From positions 2,108,001 through 2,172,000 of the forward strand of contig NZ_CP136600.1 in the NCBI RefSeq assembly GCF_032911225.1: 64,000 nt of DNA. The letters run 5' to 3'. Shown here in pieces: positions 53,877-63,658 of the stretch. The stretch's first letter is position 1, and each line of letters starts with the position of its first letter. The notes under the pieces are model-generated. The model was not told where the DNA came from. It made no database searches and worked only from the letters and a program-made list of their open reading frames with translations. This DNA is from Thalassotalea fonticola (GTDB lineage Bacteria; Pseudomonadota; Gammaproteobacteria; Enterobacterales; Alteromonadaceae). The position numbers were made by a program, and so were the translations under genes.

Positions 53877-54046
53877 TGTATTGTTAACAATTAGTTAAAT
53901 TGACTAAAAATAATTGATTAAATTAACATTTAACCTTTTAAACTTATCAGAAAAAGGCATAACACACTGAAAATTATATAAAATATATTATTGGCAAATA
54001 TTTTGCTTTAATAGCTATTAAGTACAATAAAATTATGGAACAACTC

Positions 54047-54892
54047 ATGAAAAAATCACTAATTGTAAATTTAACAGCAAGCCTATTACTGAGTACAACA
54101 CTGTTAAGCACCGCAACAATTGCGCACGAAAAAGGCCATGGATCTGATTCAAAATCTGGCAGTTACTCGTTTAATAGCGACGAATGCTCTATAGATGTTA
54201 ACTACGGTGTGGTGGTTGAAGGTGATAACATTCGCTTTATCAATAACGATGAAACCTATGTACAGATCAACAATAATCAGCAGCTGTTTGTTGAAGGTAA
54301 GTTAGTCGATTTGAGTGAGCGACAACAAGCGCTAGTTGCTGAATATTCTGAGCAAATAAATAGGCAAGTACCTGAAGTTGTAACTCTTGCTGAAGATGCA
54401 GTTGAAATTGCCTTTCAAGCTGTTAGTCATGTTGTTATTGGTTTAAGTGGTGACAACGAAAAAAGCAAAGCACGTGTTGATAGCATTTTTACCAAGATTA
54501 ATAGCGAAGTTGAAAAACGCTTCAATGAAAAAGATGGTAGCTACTTTATCGCAGAGCAAGACTTTGATGAATTTGATGAATTTATGGAAGAAGAGCTAGA
54601 AGATGAAATTGAAGAGCTAATAACTGATTCTGTCGGTGATATTCTGATTGCCGTTGGCAGTGCAATGAACAGTGAAGAAGGAAATTTTGAAGAAAATATG
54701 GAAGCTTTTGGCGAACGTATGGAAAATATGGGCAAAGATATAGAAATGGCTGTTGAGGGTAAAGCTGAAGAACTGGGCAAGCAAGCCGAAAAGCTATGTC
54801 ATAACCTAAAAAGTTTAGACCAACTCGAAACCGAATTATCCAATAGTATTAATGAGCTTAATGACTTTAATTTACTTACCGTAAGCGACTAA
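54047..54892 (+). CDS. Exported DUF2884 (YggN-like) protein
   Basis: The protein is about 281 residues from the ATG at 54047, preceded by GGAAC; the track start at 54035 adds four residues before the signal peptide. The signal peptide ends near TIAHE. CSIDVNYGVVVEGDNIRFIN, YVQINNNQQLFVEGKLVDLSERQQALV and an acidic stretch of Glu/Asp (about residues 180-200) match the YggN/DUF2884 family. It is periplasmic, of unknown function. Confidence 0.78.
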   Translation: MKKSLIVNLTASLLLSTTLLSTATIAHEKGHGSDSKSGSYSFNSDECSIDVNYGVVVEGDNIRFINNDETYVQINNNQQLFVEGKLVDLSERQQALVAEYSEQINRQVPEVVTLAEDAVEIAFQAVSHVVIGLSGDNEKSKARVDSIFTKINSEVEKRFNEKDGSYFIAEQDFDEFDEFMEEELEDEIEELITDSVGDILIAVGSAMNSEEGNFEENMEAFGERMENMGKDIEMAVEGKAEELGKQAEKLCHNLKSLDQLETELSNSINELNDFNLLTVSD

Positions 54893-56821: not shown

Positions 56822-57022
56822 TCAATCAGCTTCATCTATCCACGCCAATTGAATGGCTTCAAGTACCCTTTCACCACAGTGGTTGGCATCATCATCAAAC
56901 CTTTCAAGATCGAGCACCCACTGCCTGAGCTCGGTAAAGTGCAATTGGGTAGGATTTACATCAGGGTGTTCTTCAATTAAATCTAAAGCAATCTCAAGTG
57001 AATCTATCCATTTCAGACCCAT
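56822..57022 (-). CDS. iscX: IscX
   Basis: The 66-residue acidic protein aligns with E. coli IscX throughout: MGLKWIDSLEIA, PTQLHFTELRQWVLDLERFDDD and ERVLEAIQLAWIDEAD. IscX binds IscS and iron and tunes Fe-S cluster assembly. It normally ends the isc operon; here it stands alone, on the same strand as and downstream of the desulfurase fusion, separated by a terminator. Confidence 0.95.
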   Translation of the reverse strand: MGLKWIDSLEIALDLIEEHPDVNPTQLHFTELRQWVLDLERFDDDANHCGERVLEAIQLAWIDEAD

Positions 57023-57104: not shown

Positions 57105-57145
57105 GTCCATAGTGGTTTGCATTATTTCTTCCATGAAGTAAAAAA
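57105..57145. repeat. Interspersed repeat, copy 2
   Basis: GTCCATAGTGGTTTGCATTA and the following TTCTTCCATGAAGTAAAAAA match the copy at 43066-43106 at 34 of 41 positions by hand. It lies directly beside a terminator, as the first copy does. Confidence 0.55.
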
Positions 57146-57167
57146 ACGCCGAAAGGCGCTTTTTTTG
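57146..57167 (-). terminator. Terminator of the desulfurase fusion gene
   Basis: CGCC, GAAA, GGCG with flanking A- and T-runs forms a short GNRA-loop hairpin about 70 bases past the fusion stop. Confidence 0.75.
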
Positions 57168-57236: not shown

Positions 57237-59549
57237 TTAGCTGTATAAGGCAAAACCACCTGGAACATGGTAAACATTCTCAAAGCCCATACGTTTTAAT
57301 GTTTTAGCCGCAGCATCACTACGACTGCCACTGCGGCAAATACAAACAAACGCTGAATGTTGTTTTTGCTCATGGAATGTATGCACAAAATCAGTAAGCT
57401 GTGTAAGCGGAACATTCACTAACTGCTGTTCGGCAATGTTAACATCGCTGTAAGCTTCAAATTCGTGTGGTTCGCGTACATCAAGTACCATTACATTATC
57501 ATTCTCGATTAAGAAAGATGTTAATTGCTCTGGCGTTACATCAATTGATGGGTCAATAGACTCTTTAATGCTACCACAGTATGTTGGCTCATCACTTGCT
57601 GTTATTTCTTTATCAATTGCCGCTTTTTCATCAACAAAAACTGTACTATCAATGGCGTCTTTAATAACTTTCGATAATAGCGGAGTATTTGCTGATTCAA
57701 GTGCTAACGTTGTAGTAAATAGCTGTTTGTAATCGTGTGCAGGGCAAATCAATGTATCTTCATTGATTACAGCTGATAATTCTTTAATTGACGAGTAAAG
57801 CGCAGTGCTATCGCTAACATCAAAATCACTTCGGCCAATGCCACCAATTTGAATGGTATCGCCAGAGAATACATAATCAATATCATCCGCAGCTAATTTA
57901 CCTGCAACAGCAGTTCCTAAAAGATAAGCAACGCTATTGTTGGTATGACCTGGTAATGCGACTTTAACTAACACTTTTTCACCAATACTAATTGCCGAAG
58001 CAACACTATCATTAGCAAGAGTCACTTGTGTAGTTGTAGCATTGTTCCAACCTAATTGGTCAAAATCACCGGCAGGAACTTTTTCGCCTAACAATTCACG
58101 TAGAATAGCAGGAGTATCGGCTTGCTCATCATGCTTGTGAGTCGCTAAAATGGCTTTAATGCTATAGTTTTGACAAGACACTAAAGTATCAAACTTAGCC
58201 ACCAACTCAGGTACCGGATCAATTAAAACAATTTCTTTTGCATCTTGATCGATATAACACCAAGTGCATTGTTGGTCATAGATCCACTGTTGCAGACCGT
58301 TAGCTTTTGAATCAAAAGTCTCATCAGCATCAGATAAAATTAAACAACTGTGACGCATGGCAGCAACTGCATTTTTAATTGCACTACAGGCTTGATCAAT
58401 TTCTTCTTGAGTTGAGGCCGGGCCGAACGACATACGAATGGCACCTTCGCTTTGCCAAGTTGATTTACCCATAGCATCAAGAACAAAACTTCCCGTTACT
58501 TTCGAACTACAAGCTGAGCCTGCGCTTACACGAATACGGGCAGCATCAAATAAATTCATAATGTCTTTACTTGATAAACCTTCAACAGAAAAGTTTAACG
58601 TTGTTGGCAATGAATAGTTAAAGTCATGGTTATAAACAATTGTCGGGAATACTTCTGCTAATGTTTCAGCCAGTTGCGCACGATATGCAACTAATACCTG
58701 ATGAGACTTAAATGTGTCATCATTCTCGTCTGCTAATAATTTGAAAATAGCATTTAAAGAAGCAATGCCAGGTAAGTTTTCTGTACCTGAACGTAAACCA
58801 CCTTCTTGTCCACCGCCTGCGATAATTGGCGTGTAAGGCGCTGTTTCACGAACATATAAAAAACCGATACCTTTCGGGCCATATAATTTGTGACCACTGA
58901 ACGGGGCATAATCAATCGTTGTATTTGATAGCGCTAATGGAATTTTTCCCAACCCCTGCACACAATCAACCATCCATAATACATCGCTATTATTAGCGCG
59001 AATGACGGTTTCTAAACCAGCTAAGTCTTGAAAAACCCCGGTTTCATTGTTAGCGATCATGGTACAGATCATTAATGCGTTTGGCACATTCGCAGCAATA
59101 AAATCAAAATCTAAGATGCCGTTTTCATCAACCGGGATAGCGACAACTTCCGCGCCAATATTTAACATTTTATTCCAATGTTTAAGCGTTTCCGGAACAG
59201 CTTTATGCTCAGTAGCACCGTAAAGTAATACTGGCTTTGTAATATTGTGAGCAGTTTCTCGCGCAGCGTTTAATGCTGAGATAATTGAGGTTTGAATACC
59301 TTCGGTTGCACCACTGGTAAAAATAATTTTACCATCTGTTGCACCTGTTACCTGGCGAGCCAATGTACGAGTTGAATCAAGAATGTATTTAGCTCGAATA
59401 CCGGTCATATGACTAGAGCTCGGATTACCGTAGCATAGGTTCATCGTGTGAATTGCAGCTTCAGCTGCTTGTGGTAACACCGGCGTAGTTGCGTTGTTAT
59501 CCAAATACACCTCGTTTTTCTGAGGTTGGATATCAGTTAAATTTAACAT
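57237..59549 (-). CDS. Cysteine desulfurase / ETHE1-like MBL / rhodanese triple fusion
   Basis: This 770-residue protein has three sulfur-handling domains. Residues about 12-400 are a NifS/IscS-type desulfurase: LDNNATTP, SGATEG, PLP Lys221 in FSGHKLYGPKG, RSGTEN, and persulfide Cys347 in VSAGSACSS. Residues about 425-625 are a metallo-beta-lactamase domain like persulfide dioxygenases. His471, His535 (PGHTNNS) and Asp564 (SGDTIQIGGIGRSDF) fit the mono-iron triad, while the second half of HxHxDH is changed (HKHDEQ). LICPAHDY closes the domain. Residues about 670-770 are a rhodanese with Cys738 in CRSGSR. It would release sulfur from cysteine, then oxidise or pass on persulfide within one chain. 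It is a lone gene, with no isc/suf genes except iscX downstream. Confidence 0.92.
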   Translation of the reverse strand: MLNLTDIQPQKNEVYLDNNATTPVLPQAAEAAIHTMNLCYGNPSSSHMTGIRAKYILDSTRTLARQVTGATDGKIIFTSGATEGIQTSIISALNAARETAHNITKPVLLYGATEHKAVPETLKHWNKMLNIGAEVVAIPVDENGILDFDFIAANVPNALMICTMIANNETGVFQDLAGLETVIRANNSDVLWMVDCVQGLGKIPLALSNTTIDYAPFSGHKLYGPKGIGFLYVRETAPYTPIIAGGGQEGGLRSGTENLPGIASLNAIFKLLADENDDTFKSHQVLVAYRAQLAETLAEVFPTIVYNHDFNYSLPTTLNFSVEGLSSKDIMNLFDAARIRVSAGSACSSKVTGSFVLDAMGKSTWQSEGAIRMSFGPASTQEEIDQACSAIKNAVAAMRHSCLILSDADETFDSKANGLQQWIYDQQCTWCYIDQDAKEIVLIDPVPELVAKFDTLVSCQNYSIKAILATHKHDEQADTPAILRELLGEKVPAGDFDQLGWNNATTTQVTLANDSVASAISIGEKVLVKVALPGHTNNSVAYLLGTAVAGKLAADDIDYVFSGDTIQIGGIGRSDFDVSDSTALYSSIKELSAVINEDTLICPAHDYKQLFTTTLALESANTPLLSKVIKDAIDSTVFVDEKAAIDKEITASDEPTYCGSIKESIDPSIDVTPEQLTSFLIENDNVMVLDVREPHEFEAYSDVNIAEQQLVNVPLTQLTDFVHTFHEQKQHSAFVCICRSGSRSDAAAKTLKRMGFENVYHVPGGFALYS

Positions 59550-59810: not shown

Positions 59811-60923
59811 ATGGAATATAAATTTCAATTTGCAGCAATCGCTGTATTTACTGGTTTATTAATCTCACAACAAGCCAATGCCATAGAAGTATTTAGTAAT
59901 GACAAAACTTCAGTTTCAACTAGAGGTTGGTTGCGTCTCACCCTGCAAAGCACCGAGGACACTGATGAAATAACAGATTCTGGCTCTCGTTGGGGATTAG
60001 ATTTCAAACATAATATAGAAGGTGACTGGACTGCCGGCGTGACCGCAGAATGGGCAACCAATTTTGAGAAAAATGCCAACTTAACTCTTAGTGGTGACAG
60101 CAGTGGCCCATCAGGAAGTAGTGGCGATGCCTTAACGTCTCGTCTTGGCTATGTGCACTTTACCCACGATAAATGGGGGGCTTTCGGCGTTGGTAAACAA
60201 TGGAGTGTGTTTTATGATGTCGTCGGCGTAACCGATGTTTTAAATTATTACGGTGGTAACGCAACGGGGGTATATAACTTAGGTACCGATGGTGGCTTAT
60301 CAGGAACAGGCCGTGCGGAACAAGCGATCACTTGGCGCAAAGCCTTTGGTAATTTTAATGTTGGCGTGCAAATGCAAGCACAAGATGAAGCGGTAATTAT
60401 TAATGACCCGGGAGGTCCATTCGATGGCGAAGAAATTGCTACCATGGGCAATGGCTTTGGCGCGGCAGTAAGTTACAAATGGAATGATTTCGGCGTGGGC
60501 GCAGCAGTGAACACCAGTGAAATTGATACTGTTTTCGGTAGTGCCGATGATACAAGTAGTGGTGTTAGTGCAACCTATGGTGACTCTAGTTTAGGTTTTC
60601 ATGCAGCTCTTGCATTTGTAGTCTCTGAAAACCATGAGTTAGATAATAATGGTGACTTTATCGATGCCATTGGCTCTGAAGTTTATTTGAAATATACCAT
60701 GCCCGGTAGAATTGGTCTTTATGGCGGCATGAATTTTTTAGAGGCAGATGAGTCGGGTAATGACTTTGAAATGTATTACAACTATATTGGCGCCGAGTAC
60801 AAATTCGAAAATAGTTTTGGACTTATTTATGTCGAAACTAAAATACATGACGACAGAAATGACGATGGCAGTGATGGCAGTGATGATTCAGAGCTAGCGC
60901 TTGGTGTTCGTGTAAATCTTTAG
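59811..60923 (+). CDS. Gram-negative general porin
   Basis: The 370-residue outer-membrane beta-barrel protein has a signal peptide ending QANA (about residue 24). DKTSVSTRGWLRL, TSRLGYVHFTHDKWGAFGVGKQWSVFYD and a terminal aromatic-poor strand LALGVRVNL match the OmpC-like porin family of marine bacteria. It is paralogous to the convergent porin at 61032-62156 (shared LSGDS..., TSRLG, GKQW, GRAEQAI, FGNFNVGVQMQ). It diffuses small solutes; specificity is unknown. Confidence 0.92.
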   Translation: MEYKFQFAAIAVFTGLLISQQANAIEVFSNDKTSVSTRGWLRLTLQSTEDTDEITDSGSRWGLDFKHNIEGDWTAGVTAEWATNFEKNANLTLSGDSSGPSGSSGDALTSRLGYVHFTHDKWGAFGVGKQWSVFYDVVGVTDVLNYYGGNATGVYNLGTDGGLSGTGRAEQAITWRKAFGNFNVGVQMQAQDEAVIINDPGGPFDGEEIATMGNGFGAAVSYKWNDFGVGAAVNTSEIDTVFGSADDTSSGVSATYGDSSLGFHAALAFVVSENHELDNNGDFIDAIGSEVYLKYTMPGRIGLYGGMNFLEADESGNDFEMYYNYIGAEYKFENSFGLIYVETKIHDDRNDDGSDGSDDSELALGVRVNL

Positions 60924-61031: not shown

Positions 61032-62156
61032 TTAAAACGAAAATCGTGCGCCAATGGCTAATATATCATCGTCATTCTCTGTGCCGTCGAAGTTTGTTGA
61101 TTCGTCGAGCTTATACTCTGAATGAATACGGAATTTATCAGAGAAATGATACGCAACGCCAGCTACCATGTACGCTTTTTCGTAATCATCACCGTCATCA
61201 GAGCTTACCGAGTTGTAACCTCCTAGAATTTCTAAATCATTAGCAAAACGATAAGTAACCATAGCTTCAACACCGGTAGATTCAGCAACCATATCACCTT
61301 GTTCATTAAACTCATGATTTTCAGCTTCAGTTGCTACAACTGCGGCGTATAAACCTTGCTGACCCAGAGTACCGTACGTCACACTTACAGCAGTTAAGGT
61401 GTCATCCAATTCTTCTGAAATTAATGAATTCAAGCCGGTCATTTCAACAGAAGCTTCGTTATAACCAACACCAACACTTAGACTAAATGGTAGGGCATAA
61501 GTTAAAGCAACACCATAGGAGTTATCGTAAATTAGCTCTAAATCATTATCAGGGATACCTGGTAATAACTCATTCAGCGGGACCACTTCTTCAGTACCTT
61601 GCATTTGTACACTAACATTTAAGTTACCGAAGCTGTTGTTGTATTGAATCGCTTGTTCTGCACGACCTGCTCCAGTGTAACCACCGTCACCTAAAGCAAA
61701 TGAGCCTGCACCATCACCACCAAACACATAAAAGTTATCCGTTACACCTGTTACGTTGTAAATTGAGCCCCATTGCTTACCAAGCGTCACAGAACCCCAT
61801 TTCTCATGCCCCATACCAACAAAACCTAAACGACTAGATAAAGTGTCAGACGCTTCACCTTGGGCTAAATTAGAGTCACCATTTAGCACTAAGTCAGAGT
61901 TGTTGCTCACTAGGCTCACTGCCCATTCAGCTTTTGCAAAGGCAGACCAGCCATTGTTTAATTGGTGTGAAAATGTAAAGTTGATACGAGAGTTACCGTT
62001 ACTTACTTCGTCGGTGCCATCCGCCATTACATAGTTAGCACCAAAGAATCCACCTAGTTCTAAGCTGCTTTTATCATCTTTGAATAATTCCATAGCAGAT
62101 ATTGAAGGTGAAGTTAGTGCAATAGCCGTTGAAGTTGCAATAAGTTTAAGTTTCAT
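61032..62156 (-). CDS. Gram-negative general porin, paralogue
   Basis: The 374-residue porin has a signal peptide ending SISA (about residue 21), then MELFKDDKSSLELGGFFGANYV. LSSRLGFVGMGHEKWGSVTLGKQWGSIYNVTGVTD and GRAEQAIQYNNSFGNLNVSVQMQG parallel the neighbouring porin, and it ends ILAIGARFSF with the C-terminal Phe needed for Bam-dependent assembly. The acidic loops suggest cation preference. The pair probably arose by duplication and inversion. Confidence 0.93.
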   Translation of the reverse strand: MKLKLIATSTAIALTSPSISAMELFKDDKSSLELGGFFGANYVMADGTDEVSNGNSRINFTFSHQLNNGWSAFAKAEWAVSLVSNNSDLVLNGDSNLAQGEASDTLSSRLGFVGMGHEKWGSVTLGKQWGSIYNVTGVTDNFYVFGGDGAGSFALGDGGYTGAGRAEQAIQYNNSFGNLNVSVQMQGTEEVVPLNELLPGIPDNDLELIYDNSYGVALTYALPFSLSVGVGYNEASVEMTGLNSLISEELDDTLTAVSVTYGTLGQQGLYAAVVATEAENHEFNEQGDMVAESTGVEAMVTYRFANDLEILGGYNSVSSDDGDDYEKAYMVAGVAYHFSDKFRIHSEYKLDESTNFDGTENDDDILAIGARFSF

Positions 62157-62455: not shown

Positions 62456-63658
62456 ATGCAAATTACCGATCTTGCTCAAGAACAAAAAATCACTCCACTC
62501 TTTCGCTTAGGCTTTCGCCCTTTCTTTGCCTTTGGTGCTCTTTTCAGTTTGTTATCAATACTTATTTGGGGCGGCTATTTAGCAGGAAAAATATCTCTTA
62601 ATTTATATGGCGGAGGGACATTTTGGCACATGCACGAAATGATCTTTGGTTTTGTCTGTGCCATCGTAGTTGGTTTTTTACTCACTGCAGTACAGAATTG
62701 GACTGGACAAAGAGGTCTATCGGGCAAGCCGTTATTATTGTTGTTTTTGCTGTGGTTCGCTGGCCGTTTAGTTATGCTCTTTCCAGATATATTAGGCCAA
62801 CAATTAAGCGGACTCATTGATATCGCTTTTTTACCGGTAGCAGCAACTCTACTTGCAATGCCTATTATAAAAGTAAAACAAACTCGCAATATGTTTTTTG
62901 TGCCACTGTTATTACTCTTTACATTAGCCAATATTATGATGCACCTATCTATAACTGATAGCAGTGTAAATCAGATTATGCCGTCCGCTTATATTGCAGT
63001 GATGCTGGTAACACTTTTGATGTCAATTATGGCAGGTAGAGTAACGCCAATGTTTACTGCAAATGGCACGCAAACAACTAAAGTACAACCTATTCCAGCA
63101 CTAGAGTTAACCACCAATGTCAGCTTGTTTTTATTGGTGCTTAGCTATTTTGTTCATCCGTTTGTTGAAATTCCAAATACCATCAAAAGCGCATTATTTT
63201 TAACTGCCGGGATCAGTCAAATGTTTCGTTGGCTGCGTTGGAGGCCTTGGATCACATTTGGTGTGCCACTACTTTGGTCTTTACATAGTGCGCTGTTCTT
63301 TATTTGGTTTGGCTTGATTATGCTTGGTATTGGTCATATATTTGACACATTCCCACTAAACCATGTTTGGCACTTACTTACCATTGGCGGTATGGGCGGA
63401 TTAATTTTAGCAATGATTTCTCGTGTTACCTTAGGCCATACCGGCAGAGCTTTACAGCCACCAAAAATAATGAATTTTGCGTTCATTTTAATGTTAATTG
63501 CAACGATGAGTCGAGTATTTGGACCTTGGTTTATGCCGGAAAGTTACAGTGCATTTATCAATTTCAGCGTGCTATGTTGGTTTTCTTCGTATGGAATATT
63601 TGTTATAAAATATGGTCCTATGTTACTTACCCCTCGTAAAGATGGACGTCCAGGTTAA
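62456..63658 (+). CDS. nnrS: NnrS-family heme/copper membrane protein
   Basis: The 400-residue protein has about 12 transmembrane helices and NnrS motifs: FRLGFRPFFAFGALFS, GGTFWHMHEMIFGFVCAIVVGFLLTAVQNWTGQ, FPLNHVWHLLTIGGMGGLILAMISRVTLGHTGR. Conserved His residues bind heme. NnrS protects against nitric oxide stress. It is followed after 46 bases by a D-2-hydroxyacid dehydrogenase gene. Confidence 0.93.
   Translation: MQITDLAQEQKITPLFRLGFRPFFAFGALFSLLSILIWGGYLAGKISLNLYGGGTFWHMHEMIFGFVCAIVVGFLLTAVQNWTGQRGLSGKPLLLLFLLWFAGRLVMLFPDILGQQLSGLIDIAFLPVAATLLAMPIIKVKQTRNMFFVPLLLLFTLANIMMHLSITDSSVNQIMPSAYIAVMLVTLLMSIMAGRVTPMFTANGTQTTKVQPIPALELTTNVSLFLLVLSYFVHPFVEIPNTIKSALFLTAGISQMFRWLRWRPWITFGVPLLWSLHSALFFIWFGLIMLGIGHIFDTFPLNHVWHLLTIGGMGGLILAMISRVTLGHTGRALQPPKIMNFAFILMLIATMSRVFGPWFMPESYSAFINFSVLCWFSSYGIFVIKYGPMLLTPRKDGRPG

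Follow-up and report, generated by a model that had tools for sequence, protein, structure and literature searches.

A desulfurase-rhodanese fusion of Thalassotalea fonticola with a variable persulfide-dioxygenase-like domain between its two outer enzymes

A gene in a 64,000-nucleotide stretch of Thalassotalea fonticola DNA (NZ_CP136600.1, 2,108,001 to 2,172,000; the whole stretch is called the window here, and coordinates are positions within it) codes on one chain for a cysteine desulfurase, a metallo-beta-lactamase-fold (MBL) domain like that of the persulfide dioxygenase (PDO) ETHE1, and a rhodanese. Our results show that, in the relatives examined, the conserved core of this protein family is the desulfurase together with the rhodanese, and that the enzyme between them has been repeatedly altered, shrunk or deleted. 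From the sequences and their comparison we favour, as probable though well short of secure, a function as a cysteine-degrading relay in which persulfide would pass from desulfurase to rhodanese, with the PDO as an optional outlet. The chain unites two known two-domain fusions, desulfurase-rhodanese and dioxygenase-rhodanese, and its relatives form a natural series (full iron site, iron triad only, relic, domain gone) through which three questions can be approached directly: which residues a PDO needs, to what end the rhodanese transfers its sulfur, and for what reason an oxidation step is gained or given up in bacterial cysteine breakdown.

Domain layout, outer enzymes and spread

Members of the family were gathered by a protein search in which 2754 of the 7997 candidates scored reached E <= 1e-60; the best 120 of these 2754, the window protein included, were aligned with 50 further loci and with 46 non-duplicate members from the family of a Massilia, which makes 216 members. 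The parts of the window protein are as follows, with residues of the middle domain placed by homology to AcPDO, the type I PDO of Acidithiobacillus.

57237..59549, minus strand: fusion gene, 770 aa, ATG to stop
58350..59510, minus strand: cysteine desulfurase domain, class I, NifS/IscS-like, residues 14-400
58887..58889, minus strand: K221, the pyridoxal phosphate (PLP) lysine, K in 216/216 members
58509..58511, minus strand: C347, catalytic cysteine of the desulfurase, C in 216/216 members
57666..58292, minus strand: ETHE1-like MBL domain, residues 420-628
58137..58139, minus strand: H471, iron ligand by homology to AcPDO H57
58122..58127, minus strand: E475-Q476, where AcPDO has the Asp-His pair D61/H62
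57945..57947, minus strand: H535, iron ligand by homology to AcPDO H113
57858..57860, minus strand: D564, iron ligand by homology to AcPDO D130
57546..57665, minus strand: PDO C-terminal segment, residues 629-668, with K642 (AcPDO K212) and C658 (AcPDO C224)
57246..57545, minus strand: rhodanese domain, residues 669-768
57336..57338, minus strand: C738, catalytic cysteine of the rhodanese in its CRSGSR loop, C in 215/216 members, one row being truncated

With its C-terminal segment the ETHE1-like region covers residues 420-668. The preliminary description of this stretch, drawn up from the letters alone, had read here a desulfurase, an ETHE1-like MBL domain and a rhodanese in one chain. That reading held, since the frame is real, the domain identities are as named, and each residue it had singled out (Lys221, Cys347, His471/His535/Asp564, Cys738) is present.

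The first domain has the marks of a class I desulfurase, with the PLP lysine in a GHK motif, the cysteine in an SGSAC loop, the histidine (TEHK), the aspartate and the glutamine; H115, K116, D195, Q198, H220, K221, R340 and C347 are identical in 216/216 aligned members. It scores below each NCBIfam equivalog cut-off among the matches listed, including those for IscS (228.9 bits, cut-off 643.2) and for NifS (281.5 bits, cut-off 530.75), and unlike those enzymes it is fused and located outside an isc operon, and its gene is probably transcribed alone. Selenocysteine lyase was considered as well, its fold score and identity (32-34%) being close to those of IscS, and was rejected; selenocysteine lyases have Asp at the position after the active-site His, where K116 stands here as in IscS. 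At the other end of the chain, the six-residue CxxGxR loop of rhodaneses reads CRSGSR at C738, and the domain matches Pfam above cut-off.

The architecture recurs well beyond the window. Fusion-family matches, far better than IscS-type ones, were found in 16/59 genomes of the same family (its own genome included), 13 of which match over at least residues 13-699, as well as in 32/295 genomes of the order. On the Massilia side, 59/195 genomes matched the 653-aa member of that Massilia, and 49 of the 59 matching loci were read. A class-wide draw gave 1/274 genomes, the window's own, but this figure is weak because the draw was thin (about 1-2 genomes per family, three candidates scored per genome) and members exist in Kangiellaceae and Massilia. 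Named holders include Thalassotalea, Shewanella, Pseudoalteromonas, Psychrobium, Kangiellaceae, Duganella and Massilia. The earlier remark that no characterised triple fusion was known agrees with the open literature, in which none was found, subscription papers being mostly outside that search.

The middle domain and its fate across the family

For AcPDO, the accessible part of PMC6060420 gives an iron triad of H57, H113 and D130, a second-shell network to which D61, H62 and H171 belong, a pairing of R139 with D141, a predicted role of Y173 and K212 in binding glutathione (GSH), and C87 and C224 as essential; no activity could be detected in the D61A and H62A variants, although they melted at temperatures similar to that of the wild type. 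In the window protein the 2-His-1-carboxylate triad of type I PDOs is present as H471, H535 and D564. So are the Arg/Asp pair, the GSH-site residues and the essential Cys: R573, D575, H605 and Y607 correspond by alignment to AcPDO R139, D141, H171 and Y173, while K642 and C658 were placed as the counterparts of AcPDO K212 and C224 through alignment and spacing to the PDO-rhodanese fusion BpPRF. The PDO motif THxHADH, however, reads THKHDEQ, without its Asp and His. The preliminary description had called all key residues intact, and this was too strong, because the D61/H62 pair that AcPDO requires is E475/Q476 here; the residues it named do stand. Human ETHE1 (4chl), the Myxococcus xanthus enzyme (M. 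xanthus, 4ysb) and AcPDO share with the window domain the fold, the iron triad, the Arg/Asp pair, the His, Tyr and Lys and the position of the essential Cys at about 22-28% identity in fold alignments, but differ in having Asp-His for Glu-Gln and in not being embedded between two other enzymes. With the iron triad and substrate residues kept and the second-shell pair replaced, iron binding by the domain is likely, and its oxygenase activity would be about an even bet.

Across the 216 members, the triad occurs with the Asp-His pair in 97 and by itself in 50, the window's group, whereas 65 have no triad and 4 have lost the whole domain; among the 46 Massilia-side additions these last two states account for 42 and 4. 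When the 65 rows without triad were examined for motifs, no hidden intact MBL site came to light; P0046 retains PGHT and a THxY. In a tree of the desulfurase domain with 170 rows, the no-triad state requires 6 changes, 5 of them forced by well-supported branches, and the smallest well-supported set that holds the window consists of 56 rows, 50 triad-only and 6 without triad. A second tree, for which a picked subset was joined by 15 additional database proteins and two IscS to make 86 rows, requires 5 changes for triad absence and 5 for deletion of the domain (2 forced), the deletions being nested among relic forms. Over both trees, triad absence calls for no fewer than 4-5 separate changes. 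We read the absences as losses because the relics still align to MBL domains and stand-alone PDOs have intact motifs. The MBL-less members, four from genomes and nine checked in the database, are 510-553 aa long, and one of these forms (P0122, 511 aa) is 84% identical to a 728-aa relic form (P0125) over the aligned 78% of the query. The series of forms suggests that at least some desulfurase-rhodanese enzymes arose through loss of the middle domain.

Within the window's own group, the domain is held by selection. At 55% mean MBL identity, H471, H473, H535, D564, R573, H605 and Y607 are found in 50/50 triad-only rows, D575 and C658 in 49/50 each and K642 in 48/50. Position 475 is freely variable in these 50 rows (Q14, E11, H8, G6, N4, A3, others), and position 476 is Gln in 43/50. 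C658 is present in 146/147 triad-bearing rows against 3/69 of the others. In the comparison with the nearest relative, the ratio of nonsynonymous to synonymous substitution rates (dN/dS) is lowest in the rhodanese (0.016), followed by the desulfurase (0.025) and the MBL domain (0.057); in other pairs the MBL value reaches 0.17. All of these values are rough because dS is about 1 or above. The MBL domain evolves faster than its neighbours, yet it is not in free decay. The label of a persulfide-dioxygenase-like MBL domain is supported in that selection has preserved the iron triad and most of the residues with which PDOs handle their substrate.

All 147 triad-bearing members have an acidic residue at position 475 or 575; the combinations at these two positions are D/N in 80, D/D in 18, other/D in 48 and other/E in 1. 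Asn stands at 575 in 80/97 rows with the Asp-His pair, and Asp in 49/50 rows without it. One second-shell acid thus seems to be exchanged for the other, and the persistence of at least one of them looks like a rewiring of the network more than its loss.

Proposed reaction and competing explanations

In the relay that we propose, the desulfurase would convert cysteine to alanine and leave a persulfide on C347, as its residues and fold predict, and the rhodanese would take this sulfur over on C738 and transfer it to glutathione or a different thiol. Where the MBL site is intact, the PDO residues kept suggest that a single iron then probably oxidises the glutathione persulfide to sulfite. Rhodaneses join sulfite and sulfur to thiosulfate, and the rhodanese of the fusion could do the same. 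Oxidation would be an optional outlet, with the outer two catalytic cysteines kept and the middle enzyme repeatedly altered or discarded among the members examined. We infer a role for the fusion in cysteine breakdown.

A relay from desulfurase to rhodanese has support in print for a two-domain protein of the same layout, CD-Rhd of Pseudorhodoferax sp. Leaf274 (WP_056898193.1), a natural bifunctional enzyme of 54 kDa; the accessible part of PMC8931425 proposes that sulfur passes from desulfurase cysteine C334 to rhodanese cysteine C466, and the products measured there are H2S and transferred persulfide. It has the top activity in the table of that paper, which terms it the most efficient desulfurase characterised, and in the same accessible part sulfite is unreported as a product from cysteine (PMC8931425). 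The available text of another paper describes its employment in the CyReB sensor (PMC12319549). Like the fusion, CD-Rhd combines in a single chain a desulfurase and a rhodanese that both have their catalytic cysteines, and its layout is that of the MBL-less 510-553 aa members (C338 and C478-479 in L146 and L147); unlike CD-Rhd, the window protein has an MBL domain between the two. The Pseudorhodoferax protein was not returned by the protein searches or the plasmid search among the matches listed, most rows of which are nameless.

A regulator may also bear on cysteine. A divergent Lrp/AsnC gene lies beside the fusion in 14/63 loci of at least 9 kb, namely 11/11 Duganella/Massilia/Pseudoduganella loci and three from one other family. 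The E. coli regulator YbaO/CyuR/DecR is described as cysteine-activated in the accessible text of PMC7373191.

Several points weigh against the relay with an optional outlet. The MBL triad is present in 147/216 sampled members, and the word optional may understate the role of the domain in Alteromonadales; sampling was uneven, as it combined top database matches with hand-picked loci. The trees were quick ones in which long branches carry flags, and their IscS root, placed at the end of a very long branch, is unreliable. The Lrp regulator is absent at the window locus and was not seen in 49/63 loci, and the likeness of the fusion-linked regulators to cysteine-sensing DecR is a presumed one. 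The tie of the family to Pseudorhodoferax CD-Rhd is one of layout. Finally, in the very divergent member L053 Pfam misses the rhodanese domain, though the Cys loop aligns.

The alternative that survives best, which could well be correct if at somewhat less than even chances, is that the window protein has three working sites and converts cysteine sulfur, by way of persulfide, to sulfite or thiosulfate within a single chain, much as the preliminary description had proposed. The retention of the iron triad, R573, D575, H605, Y607, K642 and C658 in 48-50 of the 50 triad-only rows is in keeping with it, as is the collinearity of the MBL-rhodanese half with BpPRF (5ve3-5ve5); BpPRF itself has no desulfurase domain, has an intact HxHxDH motif and seems to place its two domains differently relative to each other (rmsd 14.8 over 290). 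In addition, the accessible part of PMC6060420 lists as PDOs the type III enzymes, which are without the same His. To these belongs the PDO-sulfurtransferase CstB of Staphylococcus aureus (S. aureus), an MBL-rhodanese protein without desulfurase in which that last motif His is likewise missing (Phe or Tyr), but in which the His alone is said to be replaced and the Asp seems kept, and which prefers bacillithiol and coenzyme A persulfides (PMC6060420, same part). The inactivity of AcPDO D61A and H62A argues on the other side, since both positions are changed in the window protein and the first is freely variable in its group, and six rows that group with the 50 triad-only rows have lost the triad too. 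In the fold comparisons we take structure 3r2u to be CstB. Cysteine-to-sulfite conversion by the window protein is plausible from its residues, but given the changed pair, the eroding MBL domain and the H2S- or persulfide-making two-domain fusion, a sulfite or thiosulfate product is possible and unproven. Of the earlier interpretation, the domains, the iron triad and a role outside Fe-S assembly stood, whereas the claim of full intactness was too strong, and the conserved core of the family is the desulfurase with the rhodanese. A bolder extension, tentative and rather unlikely in our view, is that the window's group (50 sampled, the named ones mostly Thalassotalea and kin) represents a new PDO type with mononuclear iron and no Asp/His pair, which would be fed in cis by its own desulfurase and rhodanese and turn cysteine into alanine and sulfite in one chain.

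It is also possible, with the chances leaning against it, that the window's MBL domain is catalytically dead and only a spacer, and that the desulfurase and rhodanese deliver persulfide or H2S. Loss of the Asp/His pair essential in AcPDO points this way, as do the repeated full loss or deletion of the domain elsewhere with intact outer domains and the presence in the genome of a separate, stand-alone PDO, whose closest structures are 4efz and the type II enzyme 4ysk. A spacer hardly fits with 48-50/50 conservation of ligands and GSH-site residues at 55% mean identity, nor with the low MBL dN/dS.

That the desulfurase serves iron-sulfur (Fe-S) assembly with the neighbouring IscX is very improbable, although the arrangement at the locus invites the idea, with iscX starting 214 bases downstream on the same strand and a fusion-iscX pair found again in L076, a locus of another family.

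56822..57022, minus strand: iscX (PF04384), the sole copy found in the genome, a neighbour through old synteny
57140..57165, minus strand: terminator-like hairpin (z -3.2) with a T run at its end, located between fusion and iscX, absent from the list of a consensus terminator scan

The hairpin separates the two genes, and an operon of fusion and iscX in the window was rejected on this ground. The NAD-malic enzyme gene (maeA) follows iscX, and in 15 iscX stretches of relatives maeA adjoins in 14 and nnrS lies within 9 (one weak), 13/15 of these stretches coming from genomes without any fusion found. The pair maeA-iscX is therefore an old neighbourhood, and a main role in Fe-S work through IscX was set aside; iscX was found in 6/16 genomes with a fusion and in 13/43 without. 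A separate IscS, over the NCBIfam cut-off at 761.5 bits, is encoded far from the window at C1:4544826-4545968, and the fusion is neither in the isc operon nor the only IscS-type gene of the genome, in keeping with the earlier view of a route other than Fe-S assembly. With an IscS and a type II PDO encoded elsewhere in it, the genome need not depend on the fusion for Fe-S supply or for bulk PDO activity. Least probable of all, to the point of being nearly negligible, is a glyoxalase-II-like dinuclear hydrolase in place of an oxygenase, for which GloB is the best NCBIfam match of the MBL domain, far under its cut-off (54.9 against 200.8 bits).

Neighbouring genes in the window and in relatives

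The other genes around the fusion in the window are the following.

54035-54892, plus strand: gene for a DUF2884 protein, adjoining the malic enzyme gene
59811-60923, plus strand: Porin_4 gene, between fusion and nnrS
61032-62156, minus strand: Porin_4 gene, similar to the porin at 59811-60923, between fusion and nnrS
62456-63658: nnrS

No common neighbourhood of the fusion was found among relatives except the Lrp regulator (14/63 loci) and, in some, iscX. In three relatives with no fusion found (L107 1781-3792, L110 1295-3378 and L111 2283-4330), the slot between nnrS and iscX is occupied by a class V PLP enzyme of about 510 aa together with a regulator of the Lrp type (nnrS was not seen in the L110 stretch). 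Two of these class V enzymes were scanned and had SufS as best NCBIfam match, below cut-off. The slot gives the impression that one desulfurase has taken the place of another.

Other neighbours are lineage-specific, and this applies to the nqr, TauE and cysK genes. In L051 (587-9834), the fusion comes 25 bases after a set made up of nqrA-F, which score over the NCBIfam cut-offs, an ApbE-like gene, which scores below, and nqrM, identified by Pfam; by similarity the same nqr clusters occur in L052 and L053, the three loci represent three genera, and all three fusions are without the MBL triad. In L078, a gene of the TauE/SafE sulfite-exporter family (PF01925, 10554-11426) lies divergently at a distance of 467 bases from a fusion whose MBL site is intact. 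In L073 (6171-7139) and L074 (10693-11661), cysK, over the NCBIfam cut-off, shares the strand of the fusion and precedes it by about 1 kb.
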